The notes under the pieces were generated by a model. The model was given only the letters and a program-made list of their open reading frames with translations. It ran no database searches and was not told where the DNA came from. The translations under genes and the position numbers were made by a program. A stretch of DNA of 44,445 bases from an uncultured Rhodospirillales bacterium (GTDB lineage Bacteria; Pseudomonadota; Alphaproteobacteria; Acetobacterales; Acetobacteraceae), in the NCBI GenBank assembly GCA_903865895.1, contig CAIPLM010000214.1, positions 1 through 44,445 of the forward strand. Direction: 5' to 3'. Positions 614-14,004 of this stretch are shown in pieces. Numbering within the stretch: the first letter of the stretch is position 1; each line of letters opens with the position of its first letter.

Positions 614-1816
614 GTGGCCCGTATCGAAGACATCCCGGAACCGACCCGCAGCGCCGTTCTCGCCCTCGCCATCGCTGGTTTCGAGGCGCACCCGTTTGTC
701 GCCGGCCCACCGCTCGCGTCGCGTCGCGTAGCGGTGGTGACCTCCGCGGCCCTGCATCGCCGCGGAGATGCGCCGTTTCAGCCGGGTAGCGCCGAAGTGC
801 GGTTTCTGCCTGCCGCCACGCCGGCAAGCGATCTGGTAATGAGCCATGTCTCAATCAACTATGATCGCAGCGGCTGGCAGCGCGACATCAACACCATCTA
901 TCCGCTCGATCGCCTGCGCGCGCTCGCCGCCGCCGGGGTGATCGGCGCGGTGGCCGACACACATTATTCCGTGATGGGGTCCACTGACCCTGCCACCATG
1001 GCCGAGACCGCCGATCAAATCGTGGGACAGCTGAGGCAGGAGCGCAGCGATGCGGTCCTCCTCAGCCCTGTCTGACCCTTCTGCACGCGCGCCGTGAGCG
1101 CGCTCGCCCACATGATCGAAAGCCGCGGGGTGCCGACCGTCACGCTCGGCCTGGTCCGCGCCCATCTGGAAGCGACCGCTCCGCCTCGGGCGTTGTTCGT
1201 GCCCTTCGTGCTCGGCCGGCCGCTGGGTGAGCCGGAGGATGCGGCGTTCCAATCCCGCGTCCTGCGCCACGCGCTTGGGCTGCTGGAGCGTGTTGACGGC
1301 CCGGTGATCCTTGAGGATTTCGCCGTCGATGCGCCGAGCCATCGCAAACGGCCGGGCTGGGCGCCGGGGATCGTGCTGCCGGGCGGCATTGCCGATGCGC
1401 CGGGCGTGGCCCGCGAGATCGCCGCCCTGATGCCGCACTGGCTTCGCGCCGTCGCGCGCTTCGGGCGCAGCACCGTCGGCATCACGCCCGTCGCGCCGGC
1501 GGACATGGCGGGCGCCCTCGCGCCCTATCTCGCGGGCGGCAAGGTGGAGAGCCCGGTCGCTGGGCTGGCGCCCGCGCTCGCGCTGCGCTTCATCGCCGAT
1601 GACCTGAAAGCCTTCTACAGCGAGGCGGCACAGGAGGCGGGGGAGCAGCCCGGCGTTGGGCAGGTCGACCGCTGGTTCTGGTCGGAAACCCTCGCCGGCC
1701 AGTTCTTGGTGGCGTTGCGCCGTGCCGGCATGGCGAACCCCGACAACGCGATCCGCGCCTTCGCCACGCGCTTCCTGGTTCCCGTTCCCTATTTGCCCGA
1801 GGGCGAGCCACGTTGA
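614..1816 (+). CDS. Selenoprotein of the PrdB/GrdB (proline/glycine/betaine reductase) family, UGA read as selenocysteine
   Basis: One frame runs from GTG 614 to TGA 1814-1816 and is broken only by TGA at 1073-1075. Read through, this codon is residue 154 of about 400 and gives the context LLSPV-U-PFCTRAV, a Sec-x-x-Cys redox motif (Cys codon 1082-1084). The proteins on both sides are collinear with selenoprotein B of D-proline/glycine reductases, where a selenocysteine sits near residue 150. A perfect 6-bp hairpin lies just downstream (1087-1103). There is no ribosome binding site before the GTG at 1094 that would start a separate second protein. Clostridial relatives cleave C-N bonds reductively together with pyruvoyl subunits. 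No such partner is encoded here, so the substrate is unknown. The start is uncertain: GTG 614 fits the family N-terminus (ARIEDIPEPTR), while ATG 527 would overlap the kinase gene. Other readings are a nonsense mutation or a sequence error. Confidence 0.82.
1076..1103 (+). promoter_or_regulatory. Putative bacterial SECIS hairpin
   Basis: Directly after the in-frame TGA, GCGCGC (1087-1092) pairs perfectly with GCGCGC (1098-1103) around the five-base loop CGTGA. The loop begins 18 bases after the TGA and has a G in its first two positions. This matches the spacing and loop rule known for bacterial SECIS elements, which recruit SelB and Sec-tRNA. It lies inside the coding sequence, as bacterial SECIS elements do. 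GC-rich DNA makes short hairpins common, so the support comes mainly from its position. Confidence 0.6.
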
Positions 1817-9402: not shown

Positions 9403-10407
9403 TCAGGCCGCCGAGGTCAGGAAGTCGCGATAGCCGAACAGGCCGACCTGCCCGCCGGTGTGCAGGAAGACGATGTTCTGATCCTGGGTGTAGTGGCCCT
9501 TGCGGATCAGGTCGATCAGCCCGGCCATGCCCTTCCCGGAGTAGACGGGATCGAGGAAAATCCCCTCCAGCCTTGCGCACAACATCAGCGCCTCGCCCAT
9601 CCCCGCGGTCGGGATGCCGTAGCCCTCGCCGACATAGTCGCAATTGGCGACCACCGCCTCGCGGCGAATACCGCCCTTGAGGCCGAGCTTCTCGGCGGTC
9701 GACTCGCAGAGCTTGTGGACGTTGGCCTCTTGGCGATCACGCGGGTTGCGCACGCCGATGCCGAGCACGGGAATCCCGGAATTCAGCGCCTCGAGCCCGA
9801 CGACCAAGCCGGCCTGAGTGCCGGCGCTGCCGGTGGCGTGCACCAGCTGGTCGATCCGCAGGCCAATCTCATTGGCCTGGGCCAGCAATTCGAGCGCCAC
9901 ATGTGCATAGCCCAGCGCGCCGGTGGGGTTGGAGCCGCCGCCGGGGATGACATAGACCTTCTCGCCGGCGGCCCGCATCGCGGCGCCCTTGGCCTCGGCC
10001 TCGGCGTTCATGTCGAGCCCGGGCTCGCGATACTCGATATTGAGGCCGAGCATGCGGTCGAGCAGCACGTTGCCGCTCTCCAGGTAGTCGGTGTCGTTGG
10101 TCTTGATGCGGTGCTCCAGCAGCGCGGTGCATTTGAGGCCGAGCTTGGCGGCGGCGGCGGCGGTCTGGCGGACGTGGTTGGACTGCACGGCGCCTTGGGT
10201 GACGATGTGGGTGGCGCCCTGCGCAAGCGCCTCGCCGAGGAGGAATTCGAGCTTGCGGTTCTTGTTGCCGCCAGTGGCAAGCCCGGTTGCGTCATCGCGC
10301 TTGATCCAGAGCTGCGGGCCGCCGAGATGGGCGGTCAGCCGCGGCATGAATTCGAGCGGCGTCGGCGCATGGCAGAGTTTGACGCGGGGGAAGCGGGCGA
10401 GATGCAT
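9403..10407 (-). CDS. D-cysteine desulfhydrase / L-cysteate sulfo-lyase family PLP enzyme
   Basis: A 334-residue fold-type II PLP enzyme of the ACC deaminase/D-cysteine desulfhydrase family. The cofactor lysine is Lys49 in [12 protein letters not shown], and the conserved serine is Ser76 in [11 protein letters not shown]. The PLP phosphate loop is probably [10 protein letters not shown]. Members release sulfide from D-cysteine, or sulfite from L-cysteate (CuyA), with pyruvate and ammonia as the other products. The N-terminus MHLARFPRV and the overall sequence resemble both groups, so the substrate is undecided. AGGAAA precedes the ATG by about 12 bases. It is divergent from msrP, which also handles oxidised sulfur compounds. 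Confidence 0.88.
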
Positions 10408-10576
10408 GGGACTGGCTTTCCTGCTGCGGCCTGTAACGGCGGGCGTTCTCGTCTGTTTGGTTCAAGGGCGACGGAATATCAACCCGGCCGTTGCCTTGGC
10501 GACCCTCGGCGGGGCACTATGTGTGCGCTGCGGGTTGCGCACCGAACGGGGCACCCATGGCAAGGAGCAGGGGAAC

Positions 10577-11557
10577 ATGATCATCCACAGGCGGCGCGGC
10601 TGGGAGATTCCGGAACGCGAGGCGACACCGGAGGCGGTGGTGCTAGGGCGGCGGGCGCTGCTTGGCGCCGGCGCCGGGCTGGGCGCCATGATCGCGGGGC
10701 CGGCCTCGGCGCAATGGAACATTTTCGGCCGCCGCCCCAACATGCCCGATCTCGCCGCGCGCAAGCCGCTGCCGGCGCCGATGAACGCGGCCTACGAGCC
10801 CGGCCGCGCGCTGACGCCCGAACTCGAGGCAACGACCTATAATAACTATTACGAATTCGGCGAATCGAAATCGATCTACGACGCCGCCAAGGGCTTCTCC
10901 GTCGAGCCATGGACCATCGAGATCACCGGCCAGGTCGCCAAGCCGCGTAAGATCGGCTTCGAGGATCTGTTGAAGCAGGTGACATTGCAGGAGCGGGTGA
11001 CGCGGCATCGCTGCGTCGAGCGCTGGGCGATGACGGTGCCGTGGGTTGGCTTCCCGCTCGCCGATTTGGTGAAGCTCGTCGAGCCGACCAGCAAGGCGAA
11101 ATACCTCATTTTCACCTCGGCCGCCGACAAGAAGACCATGCCGGGCCTCAACCGCTCCTATTATCCGTGGCCCTACGTGGAAGGCGTCACCATGCAGGAG
11201 GCGGCGAATGACCTCTCCTTCATCTCGGTCGGCATGTACGGCAAGGTGCTGCCGACCCAGAACGGCGCGCCGCTGCGGCTGACGTTGCCGTGGAAATACG
11301 GGTTCAAGCATGCCAAGGCGATTGTGAAGATCGAGTTCTCCGAAAAGCGGCCAGTCTCCTTCTGGGAGGCGCTGAACGGCGACGAGTACGGGTTTTGGGC
11401 CAACATCAACCCCGCCGTCGCCCATCCGCGCTGGAGCCAGTCGACCGAGACGCTGCTTGGCACTGACGAGACGGTGCCGACCAAGATCTGGAACGGCTAT
11501 GGCGAGTTCGTTGCCGGCATGTATGCCGACAAGAAGAACGAACGGCTGTTCGCTTGA
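10577..11557 (+). CDS. msrP: Protein-methionine-sulfoxide reductase, molybdopterin catalytic subunit
   Basis: A 326-residue periplasmic molybdoenzyme of the YedY/MsrP family, which reduces methionine sulfoxide in oxidised periplasmic proteins. A twin-arginine type leader is visible: Arg25-Arg26 in LGRRALLG, a hydrophobic stretch, then a likely cut after GPASA at 45. The molybdenum ligand is Cys146 in RHRCVERWAM, the same precursor position as in E. coli. The DLSFISVGMYGK and KYGFKHAK segments also fit the family. ATG 10577 has AGGAGCAGGGG in front; the open frame extends upstream, but without protein-like sequence. The usual next gene, the haem membrane partner msrQ, is absent and a short membrane protein follows instead. 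Confidence 0.94.
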   Translation: MIIHRRRGWEIPEREATPEAVVLGRRALLGAGAGLGAMIAGPASAQWNIFGRRPNMPDLAARKPLPAPMNAAYEPGRALTPELEATTYNNYYEFGESKSIYDAAKGFSVEPWTIEITGQVAKPRKIGFEDLLKQVTLQERVTRHRCVERWAMTVPWVGFPLADLVKLVEPTSKAKYLIFTSAADKKTMPGLNRSYYPWPYVEGVTMQEAANDLSFISVGMYGKVLPTQNGAPLRLTLPWKYGFKHAKAIVKIEFSEKRPVSFWEALNGDEYGFWANINPAVAHPRWSQSTETLLGTDETVPTKIWNGYGEFVAGMYADKKNERLFA

Positions 11558-11919: not shown

Positions 11920-13002
11920 TTACGGCACGAGGTGCGCGACGCGGGGTTTCACCTCTTCCTGGATGAGGCGCAGCGAGTTGTGCCAGACGTCGGGGTTGTC
12001 GGCGTAGTCGAAGCCGAACACCAGCAACTGCCCGAAGCCGCCGACGTCGTTGTAGACCGCTTCCAGCTTCTTCGCGACGGTCTCGGGCGAGCCGACCAGC
12101 CAGTTGTGGTGGGCGCAGTATTCCACCGTCACGTCCTCATCGGCCACGGACTGGTCGTGCTTGAGGAATTCCTTGAAGCCGAAATTCGACAGCAGGGGCA
12201 GGAAGTACTCGCCCATCATGCGGCCCATCATGCCCTTGACGGAGAGTTCCCACGCCAACTCGTCGGTTTCGGCGACGAAGATTTCGCGCACCAGGCGCCA
12301 TTCCCGCCGGTCGGGCGTGCGGCCGGACTTCCTGGCACCGGCCTCGACGCTCTCCCAATGGCTTTTCACGTAGGCCGGGTTGAGATTGAGGCTCATTGGG
12401 ATGTAGCCGAATTCGCCGGCCATCTTCAGCGTGTCGGAGTTCTTCGACAGCCCGGCGACGCCGATCGGCGGGTGAGGCTGCTGGAGCGGCTTGATGTGGG
12501 GCTTGAGGAAGCCGAACATCGTGTCGGGCTTGTTGACCGTCCAGTGCTTGCCCTTGTGCTCCCACGGGCCTTCCTGGCCCCACATCTTCAGGATGATGTC
12601 GAGCGACTCGCGGGTCATCTCGCGATTGGCGCCGGACATGCCGTCGACATTGAACATCACCCAGTCGCTCGGCAGGCCCGAGGCGGCGATGCCGAAATTG
12701 AGGCGACCCTCGGAGAGATGATCGAGCATGGCGACGCGATTGGCGAGCTCGGCGGGGTGGTGATACGGCAGCAGGAAGCCGCCGGGCCCGATGCGCAGCC
12801 GCTTGGTCTGCAGCAGCGCCTGGGCGATCAGCAGGTCGGGCGAGGGGTGGGGTTCCCAGGGGGCGGTGTGGTGCTCGCCGATCCACGCCTCGGTGAACCC
12901 GAGTTCATCGAGCCAGCGCATCGTCTGCAAATCCCAGTCATGGCCGGCCTTGAGGCCGCGTTCGGGGGGATGCGAGGGCATCGTGAAATAGCCGAATTCC
13001 AT
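11920..13002 (-). CDS. LLM-class (luciferase-like) flavin-dependent oxidoreductase
   Basis: A 360-residue member of the bacterial luciferase-like, F420/FMN-binding oxidoreductase superfamily. Typical features are the start MEFGYFTMPSHPP, WIGEHHTAPWEPHPSPDLL, the barrel segment GGFLLPYHHPAELANRVAMLDHLSEGRLNFGI, and the C-terminal GSPETVAKKLE. Relatives use reduced FMN and oxygen to oxidise small organic molecules such as monoterpenes, alkanesulfonates or aminated compounds; the substrate here is unknown. GAGGAAA precedes the ATG. It stands alone on the minus strand, convergent with the msrP unit. Confidence 0.9.
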   Translation of the reverse strand: MEFGYFTMPSHPPERGLKAGHDWDLQTMRWLDELGFTEAWIGEHHTAPWEPHPSPDLLIAQALLQTKRLRIGPGGFLLPYHHPAELANRVAMLDHLSEGRLNFGIAASGLPSDWVMFNVDGMSGANREMTRESLDIILKMWGQEGPWEHKGKHWTVNKPDTMFGFLKPHIKPLQQPHPPIGVAGLSKNSDTLKMAGEFGYIPMSLNLNPAYVKSHWESVEAGARKSGRTPDRREWRLVREIFVAETDELAWELSVKGMMGRMMGEYFLPLLSNFGFKEFLKHDQSVADEDVTVEYCAHHNWLVGSPETVAKKLEAVYNDVGGFGQLLVFGFDYADNPDVWHNSLRLIQEEVKPRVAHLVP

Positions 13003-13138
13003 GGTGTTTCCTCATTGATCTTCTCGGCACGGTCTGTGCCGGCACGGCGATGCTAGCCGCGCCGCTCGATCAGGTGAAGCACGTCCGCGGGAGCGCAGTT
13101 GGAATTGGCGCGGAATTCACGCAGCGCTGCGCGGCGCC

Positions 13139-13492
13139 TCAACCGGCTGGGCGGGCAGCCAGTATGGCAGGGGCCCAACTGCGAATATCCGGCCAGATCT
13201 GCGTCGCCCAATAGGCTGCGGCGCAGCCGGCTTCGGGCGGTACCTGTGGCAGCTTCGCCTGAATCAGAGCTGTGATCGCCCGGCCGCTTGGCATTTGCGC
13301 CTTGGCGGCGCCGATGGCGTTTTGCCCCTTGGCAGTGGCCGCGATGGCCGGCAGCTTAGCCAGTTCGACCTCCGCCAACTTGCGAACCCGCGTATTCACG
13401 GCGTCGCAGTTGTTCGGGGTAGCTTCGATTTGCGACGGTAGGAAATAGGCGGCGCCGACTATCGCGACGAGGAGCAAGAGGATCATTTTCAT
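13139..13492 (-). CDS. Small exported protein, unknown function
   Basis: A 117-residue protein if it starts at ATG 13492, with GGCGGAGC directly before it; a second ATG two codons later is equally possible. The N-terminus MKMILLLLVAIVGAAYFLPSQ is a signal peptide or single membrane anchor. The rest is soluble, with two cysteines (NNCDAVN and EAGCAAAYW) that could form a disulfide in the periplasm. I do not recognise the family. The frame extends upstream to 13540, but that stretch is arginine-rich and unlike an N-terminus. It lies 48 bases downstream of the end region of the NUDIX gene on the same strand. Confidence 0.7.
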   Translation of the reverse strand: MKMILLLLVAIVGAAYFLPSQIEATPNNCDAVNTRVRKLAEVELAKLPAIAATAKGQNAIGAAKAQMPSGRAITALIQAKLPQVPPEAGCAAAYWATQIWPDIRSWAPAILAARPAG

Positions 13493-13557
13493 GCTCCGCC
13501 GGTAACATATTGCTACGCGCCGCGCCAGTCGGGGAAACACTCATAGCGGCGCGTAGG

Positions 13558-14004
13558 TCAGACGCCGAGCAGGCCCCGCGCGATGTCGATCACCCGGTAG
13601 GCTTCGCTCCACAGCTTGAAGCCGGCGATCTCGGAGAGCTTCACGAAGCGCGCCTCGGCGGCGTCGCTGTCGCCGACCGGGTCGCCCGCTTCCCAGCGGC
13701 CGGCGAAATCGATGATGGTGTAGTGGTAGCGCACCCGGCCATCGGGATCGCGGGTGATGCTGTCGACATGGGCGGAGAGGTGCAGCTTGCCGACGGTGAT
13801 GCCGGTTTCCTCCAGCAATTCCCGCCGGGCGGCGGCCTCGGCGGGTTCGCCAACCTCCTGCGCGCCGCCTGGCAGGCTCCAGGTGCCGTAGTTCGGCGCC
13901 TTGCCGCGGCGGATCAGCAGCACTTCGCCGACCCCGTCCGCCGTCGGCCGCAATACAACGACGCCGATGCCGATGATTGGCCGGGTGGGGTATTCCCGGC
14001 TCAC
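13558..14004 (-). CDS. NUDIX hydrolase
   Basis: A 148-residue NUDIX protein. The full box GX5EX7REUXEEXGU is present at residues 47-69 (GAQEVGE, then RELLEETGI). The family cleaves nucleoside diphosphates linked to another group; members of this size and style (GIGVVVLRP, KAPNYGTWSLPGG) often act on ADP-ribose or NADH-like substrates. The start is GTG 14004, which overlaps the TGA of the DUF4340 gene by 4 bases, so it is the last member of the ABC-transporter operon. Whether it works with the transporter is not known. Confidence 0.93.
   Translation of the reverse strand: MSREYPTRPIIGIGVVVLRPTADGVGEVLLIRRGKAPNYGTWSLPGGAQEVGEPAEAAARRELLEETGITVGKLHLSAHVDSITRDPDGRVRYHYTIIDFAGRWEAGDPVGDSDAAEARFVKLSEIAGFKLWSEAYRVIDIARGLLGV

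Follow-up and report, generated by a model that had tools for sequence, protein, structure and literature searches.

A two-domain PrdB/GrdB-like protein of Alphaproteobacteria, almost certainly a selenoprotein, found without a pyruvoyl partner

Results

The window, by which we mean the whole stretch of DNA analysed (44,445 nucleotides from an uncultured bacterium of the Acetobacteraceae), carries on its forward strand at 614-1816 a reading frame that begins with GTG at 614, ends with a TGA stop at 1814-1816 and, when read through, specifies a PrdB-like protein of 400 amino acids. A sequence-only reading had described a single frame with TGA 1073-1075 as its sole interruption, and translation agrees exactly: two TGA codons occur, one at residue 154 and one at the terminus. 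The internal TGA lies in the context P-V-U-P-F-C-T-R-A-V and would encode selenocysteine 154 (Sec154), the first residue of a U-P-F-C motif; a SECIS-type hairpin follows at 1087-1103, with a 6-bp stem (1087-1092/1098-1103) and the loop CGTGA (1093-1097). As that reading had foreseen, gene calling splits the gene, the list of open reading frames giving 527-1075 (182 aa) and 1094-1816 (240 aa). Two domains are predicted by AlphaFold2, an alpha/beta (Rossmann-like) domain spanning residues 32-243 (707-1342) and an all-helical C-terminal domain spanning residues 262-386 (1397-1771), which lies beyond the PrdB-matching part. No clear ribosome-binding site was seen by eye upstream of GTG 614, and antisense frames of 195 and 163 aa overlap the gene. 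Elsewhere in the window, a forward-strand frame at 10091-11557 encodes what we take to be a molybdopterin methionine-sulfoxide reductase of the MsrP/YedY type. An open frame is by itself weak proof of a gene, since long frames arise commonly by chance in GC-rich DNA, and it is comparison that decides.

Relatives were gathered from partly overlapping whole-genome draws at the levels of order (395), class (385) and phylum (398), together with 13 loci on named contigs; 65 loci of the long form of about 400 aa, the window's copy included, were compared. Neither a plain stop nor a random residue, the patterns that had been named as speaking against selenocysteine, was found at residue 154: the codon is TGA in 61 loci, TGC in two and TGT in two, and TAA and TAG occur in none of the 65. 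The motif U-P-x-C is present in all 61 TGA loci, and TGA is retained together with the downstream domain down to about 37% identity (61 of 65), in counts that are not independent, as several loci come from related genomes and three genomes contribute two each. At their ends these genes use all three stop codons (TGA 36, TAG 21, TAA 8, the TAG of L165 being an early one), so the uniform TGA at residue 154 does not reflect a stop-codon preference. A start codon stands at the homologous place in 62 loci and is offset by -1 in two; 63 of the 65 products measure 388 to 428 aa. The two outliers, L165 (280 aa; genome G427), with an extra in-frame TAG, and L168 (353 aa; genome G766), which lacks a homologous start, may represent decay or sequencing error; both were left out of the codon-entropy analysis and the 50-member protein alignment. 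An earlier 40-row alignment across the site, which held the window's copy and some rows from the same genomes, comprised 39 TGA and one TGC, one row (L066) beginning only at residue 136. Alignments A1 and A4 cover 50 of the 65 loci, and A2 and A3 omit rows with identical 45-nt stretches; no residue-154 position was obtained for L140, and one genome with a TGA long form (G672) enters the genome counts and is absent from the 65 loci.

The hairpin begins 11 nt past the TGA and comprises six pairs, nucleotides 15-20 with 26-31 counted from the U. RNAalifold, run without a supplied structure on 86 distinct sequences (48 long and 38 short forms), returned exactly these six pairs, five of which have changed on both sides. 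Across this joint alignment 95.7% of the paired cells can pair, against 70.8 ± 1.4% in shuffled alignments, none of 500 shuffles equalling the observed value, and registers slid along the alignment gave 4.8 to 58.9%. An initial register chosen by eye (14-18/26-30) was dropped, as single-sequence folds and RNAalifold both give 15-20/26-31. The signal is modest when only the long form is considered (93.8% of cells can pair, versus 92.0% in shuffles): two pairs show changes on both sides, and 15 of 48 sequences cannot form pair 17-29. Most of the covariation sets long forms apart from short ones and amounts to few events. Codon choice at the site is also constrained: when the 79 conserved columns of fourfold or sixfold degeneracy are ranked over 59 TGA rows from the lowest synonymous entropy upward, codons 158 to 161 take places 5, 2, 1, and 3, with ACG at 158 in 48 of 59, CGC at 159 in 54 of 56, GCC at 160 in 59 of 59 and GTG at 161 in 55 of 59, the gene-wide shares among synonymous codons being 41% for GCC, 49% for CGC and 45% for GTG. 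The loop's CCGTG is not preserved in the four long-form copies with cysteine. Short paralogues have a hairpin that keeps this register and almost the same loop but differs in its stem sequence, one of them (L208) being an exception that folds otherwise. Taken as a comparative result, the interpretation of 1087-1103 as a SECIS element directing selenocysteine insertion is strongly supported.

The sequence-only reading made its proposal dependent on a selenocysteine machinery elsewhere in the genome, and SelA, SelB, tRNA-Sec, and SelD were all found in the 5.69-Mb, 392-contig assembly (G000) to which the window belongs. The end of contig C208 carries SelA (551.8 bits) together with an N-terminal piece of SelB (342.4 bits); the C-terminal piece (56.7 bits) is at the end of C197, with tRNA-Sec (84.2 bits) just downstream, and SelD (274.3 bits) is on C12. 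SelB is thus visible only as two contig-end pieces. Another tRNA-Sec family match (L005, C40:17476-17561), at 50.9 bits barely above the gathering score, is presumably a tRNA-Ser. In the order draw (E <= 1e-12), tRNA-Sec was detected in 87 of 395 genomes and in 25 of the 26 with a TGA long form; among 35 genomes searched individually (E <= 1e-9) it was detected in 28, namely 27 of the 29 TGA genomes at class level plus G327, where the gene is a fragment at a contig end and was excluded from the counts. Overall, tRNA-Sec accompanies the TGA form in 52 of 55 genomes and the cysteine form in none of four (G118, G530, G536, and G739), a difference for which Fisher's test gives p = 8e-5, a value that is indicative only since the genomes are related. 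The three TGA genomes in which tRNA-Sec was not found (G304, G655, and G756) are all in many contigs. No TGA long form was listed for 62 of the 87 order-level genomes with tRNA-Sec, where other selenoproteins therefore presumably maintain the trait. Of the 52 genomes with both a TGA long form and tRNA-Sec, nine matched the selenocysteine-containing alpha subunit of formate dehydrogenase (TIGR01553) and 43 did not at E <= 1e-100, a cut-off that would miss weaker or fragmented copies; no such match was obtained in G000.

The proposed relation to PrdB and GrdB was borne out by matches of the joined translation to four models. TIGR04483 (PrdB) scored 98.5 bits over residues 33-227, below its equivalog cut-off of 300, and TIGR01918 (50.8 bits; subfamily cut-off, 65.45) and TIGR01917 (39 bits; equivalog cut-off, 602.2) also fell short of theirs, while PF07355 (GRDB), at 29.3 bits, exceeded its gathering cut-off of 22 over residues 82-151 only; the NCBIfam matches span the TGA and the Pfam match stops just before it. 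In a tree of 122 cores, from which near-copies and duplicates had been removed, 58 long forms constitute one clade (100/99), 61 short forms fall into an unresolved grouping (68/0), and three clostridial-type PrdB sequences are separate (100/100), the program warning that the long branches of PrdB and of the long form meet. On these comparisons we regard the long form as a separate branch of the PrdB/GrdB superfamily. Residues invariant in the 50-member alignment include S80, D84, R85, H117, P152, C154 (Sec or Cys), P155, C157, E169, Q213, E268, and D330.

The AlphaFold2 model has a pLDDT of 94.8 and a pTM of 0.93 for the whole protein, and a pLDDT of 96.1 for residues 242-400 modelled alone. 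It places Sec154 after strand 147-151, at the N-terminal end of helix 155-169, with Cys157 one turn on, an arrangement that we take to resemble thioredoxin-type sites. No Pfam family matches the C-terminal domain of the window's copy, the best E value among the 50 aligned members being 0.062. Sequence searches of PDB chains returned nothing at E <= 1, and Foldseek returned nothing at E <= 1e-3 for either the whole model or the C-terminal domain. The top VIA Z scores, 8.0 for the whole model (3.6 Å over 130 residues; 4p98) and 3.8 for the C-terminal domain (3.2 Å over 75 residues; 5jo8), are such as common structural arrangements give, and the structure searches point neither to a new fold nor to a function.

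That the protein stands alone, as had been suggested, agrees with searches for PF09338, which covers the pyruvoyl or component-B partner subunits: no match was obtained in any of 35 genomes with the long form (31 TGA and 4 Cys, G000 included), whereas both controls (W01 and W02) were positive. These 35, mostly multicontig assemblies, are drawn from the 59 genomes with a long form at residue 154. TIGR04480 gave no match in G000, and its control record gave none either.

The inference of a reaction from the flanking crotonase-fold and APH-type kinase genes was not supported: among 37 loci the arrangement was seen in the window and at one other locus (L067, genome G349; 89% identity), and the pathway argument falls because the combination is confined to these two. 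At L078 a crotonase homologue is encoded on the opposite strand, at a distance of several genes. Clustering of neighbors at 37 loci and then at an overlapping set of 40 revealed no single consistent pathway in either set. Besides the sel genes, clusters C4 to C12 recur in three to seven loci each, those that were typed being GST/SspA-like (C9), NADPH:quinone reductase (C10), and TauD-like (C11). By their coordinates, the gene and tRNA-Sec lie less than 5 kb apart in 13 of the 29 class-level genomes with TGA, the distance being 54 nt in G446 and 76 nt in G697. The stretch retrieved around the gene contains selA or selB in nine of these 13 and a gene of cluster C1 in nine, the two typed members of that cluster being oxidoreductase-SelD fusions (TIGR00476; 260.5 and 288.1 bits). 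In the order draw, linkage to sel genes was seen only in G392. Among the three class-level long forms with cysteine, a TauD-type dioxygenase gene lies directly downstream in two (L144 and L145) and about 5 kb upstream in the third (L143); one copy was typed by NF007104 at 162.6 bits, below the cut-off of 313. At L162, L164, L166, and L168, all from one family (f102), a GST/SspA-like gene (230 to 240 aa) is located upstream on the same strand, directly adjacent in three of the four.

Besides the window's own family, the class draw yielded the long form in 17 families as the program numbers them, 14 with TGA and 3 with Cys. In the phylum draw, taken as a whole (398 genomes), no long form other than the window's was detected; 17 genomes had any family match, and apart from the window's these were short relatives. 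One partial TGA long form (L066; 51% identity) lies on a contig labelled Burkholderiales and could possibly represent either spread beyond the Alphaproteobacteria or a binning error. Desertibaculum subflavum SYSU D60015 (L061), a cultured carrier, has a TGA copy; G486 (L150), taken to be the same genome, has tRNA-Sec and two matches to the selenocysteine-containing formate dehydrogenase. The short alphaproteobacterial paralogues (271 to 317 aa) belong to the same family and share nearly the same SECIS loop, but they have a shorter C terminus, fall outside the long clade and differ in stem sequence. They bear UPVC in 38 of 43 TGA copies and CPVC in 16 of 19 Cys copies; in the remaining five TGA copies (L191, L199, L211, L213, and L214) the motif is UPLD, in which Asp replaces the second Cys, so that, judged by their translations, they would keep selenocysteine without a resolving thiol. 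G000 itself carries two short paralogues, L022 (contig C100, about 12749-13588, minus strand) and L003 (contig C320), one of which reads UPVC, with TGA, and has a SECIS-type hairpin of its own, and the other CPVC, with Cys.

Discussion

The exclusive occurrence of TGA or cysteine codons at residue 154, the hairpin and the presence of the sel genes uphold the assignment of this residue as the selenocysteine of a UPFC motif, and from this comparative evidence we are close to certain that TGA 1073-1075 encodes selenocysteine; the split stretch is almost certainly one selenoprotein gene. That the TGA is an ordinary stop, a sequencing error or the mark of a pseudogene, leaving two unrelated or broken frames, might be argued from the way in which standard calling divides the gene and from its GTG start codon, but we find this scarcely credible in the face of a TGA and downstream domain retained together over so wide a range of identity, with TAA and TAG absent, and of the hairpin covariation and the co-occurrence with tRNA-Sec.

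Selenocysteine in a proteobacterial PrdB-like protein is not new in itself, and the suggestion that the known relatives are confined to clostridia proved mistaken. Passages of the metagenomic surveys list PrdB selenoproteins with UxxC, 42 from Sargasso Sea data as long ago as 2005 (PMC1088965) and 235 from the Global Ocean Sampling (GOS) project (PMC2398784), and a 2006 survey reports proline-reductase selenoproteins in Anaeromyxobacter and Geobacter (PMC1794560). According to the relevant section of the same survey, formate dehydrogenase was the only selenoprotein of the selenocysteine-decoding Alphaproteobacteria then known (PMC1794560); a 2025 paper mentions three known selenoprotein genes in Afipia carboxidovorans (PMC12013277). 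The marine and other aquatic PrdB proteins share with the long form the relation to pfam07355 and the UxxC motif, and set side by side by description only, they possibly belong to the same wider group; they were named by homology, and the passages concerned make no mention of length class, second domain, missing partner or sel linkage (PMC1088965, PMC2398784). In excerpts of the open-licence literature, no account was seen of the long two-domain form, of its missing pyruvoyl partner or of its being linked to sel genes, which is weak evidence of novelty. The long form has probably been missed in routine annotation, because the gene is split at the TGA and the NCBIfam models cover only the first 230 or so residues.

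Two further known systems invite comparison. PrdB of the Clostridium sticklandii type (TIGR04483) shares, by sequence, the alpha/beta core (residues 33-227) and has UxxC at the homologous place, the Sec position being encoded by TGA in one PrdB examined here (L221); in contrast to the 400-residue long form, with its additional helical domain, its score far below the equivalog cut-off and no such partner found, the PrdB proteins compared are of about 241 aa, and prdA lies two genes upstream in L217 and L218. FarB of the Synergistota fluoroacetate reductase is likewise a GrdB-type selenoprotein, for which C-F cleavage is proposed, and its partner FarE is described as being without the cysteines for pyruvoyl formation (PMC10838667). 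FarB differs from the long form in having this GrdE-like partner and a radical-SAM gene, and its host is a rumen anaerobe (PMC10838667). FarB/FarE, a proposed fluoroacetate reductase, offers a precedent for GrdB-like action without pyruvoyl activation (PMC10838667), though FarE is a relative of GrdE.

With no pyruvoyl partner found, a different and undescribed reaction becomes plausible, as the sequence-only reading had supposed. Membership in a true D-proline or glycine/betaine-type reductase, with a pyruvoyl protein that escapes recognition, would be in keeping with the homology to PrdB and GrdB and with an SH...D...D-x-N stretch that, by eye, is common to PrdB along with UxxC; we hold it to be very improbable, given scores below the cut-offs of TIGR04483, TIGR01917, and TIGR01918, the absence of PF09338 from all 35 genomes when the controls responded, and the separate clade of the three clostridial-type PrdB proteins, subject to the program's warning that long branches meet there. 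The remaining contender is a general thiol or peroxide redox protein, thioredoxin- or peroxiredoxin-like in its use of UxxC, and not a reductase of C-X bonds. The UxxC or CxxC motif with selenocysteine at the modelled N-terminal end of a helix is consistent with such a role, as are a gene that wanders among neighbors without settling in a pathway and the GST/SspA-like gene found directly upstream in three loci and near in a fourth, within one family. We nevertheless rate this as unlikely: family scans score the protein as PrdB/GrdB-like and not as thioredoxin-like, apart from one weak TIGR02187 match (E=0.018), and the conserved His78, Asp84, Arg85, His117, and Glu268 suggest a specific substrate site.

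We favor a pyruvoyl-independent selenol reductase, because the attack on pyruvoyl-bound proline by D-proline reductase is itself called putative in the section of a review that treats it (PMC10298544) and because FarB/FarE provides a precedent. The explanation that we consider probable as a whole is that of a 400-residue selenoprotein in which SelB and Sec-tRNA-Sec would read UGA 1073-1075 as selenocysteine under the direction of the hairpin at 1087-1103, read-through in vivo being what we infer from the comparison. The selenolate of Sec154 would attack the substrate and the resulting adduct would be resolved by Cys157, giving a selenenylsulfide; the enzyme would be regenerated by cellular thiols of the thioredoxin or glutathione type. 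All this would take place in the absence of the pyruvoyl subunit that proline and glycine reductases use, and the added helical domain would probably assist in binding a substrate or partner, replacing the missing subunit. Of the parts of this explanation, independence from a pyruvoyl group is very likely and action as a selenol reductase through the UxxC pair is likely. That the enzyme cleaves a C-X bond reductively (X = N, halogen, S, or O), and does not simply reduce disulfides or peroxides, is suggested by analogy and in our estimate falls a little short of an even chance.

The broader proposal, that the long form constitutes a separate class of pyruvoyl-independent, C-X-cleaving selenoenzymes of free-living Alphaproteobacteria and, with its short paralogues, a main reason why the lineages that have it keep the selenocysteine machinery, is speculative and in our opinion doubtful. 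It draws on the 43 of 52 genomes without a strong TIGR01553 match and on the 13 of 29 class-level TGA genomes in which less than 5 kb separates the gene from selC; the 62 order-level genomes with tRNA-Sec and no TGA long form listed show that it cannot be the general reason for maintaining that machinery. Selenocysteine in Alphaproteobacteria has so far been tied mostly to formate dehydrogenase, and if the explanation offered here is true, a single protein of this fold acting without a pyruvoyl partner would make substrate activation by the fold directly testable.
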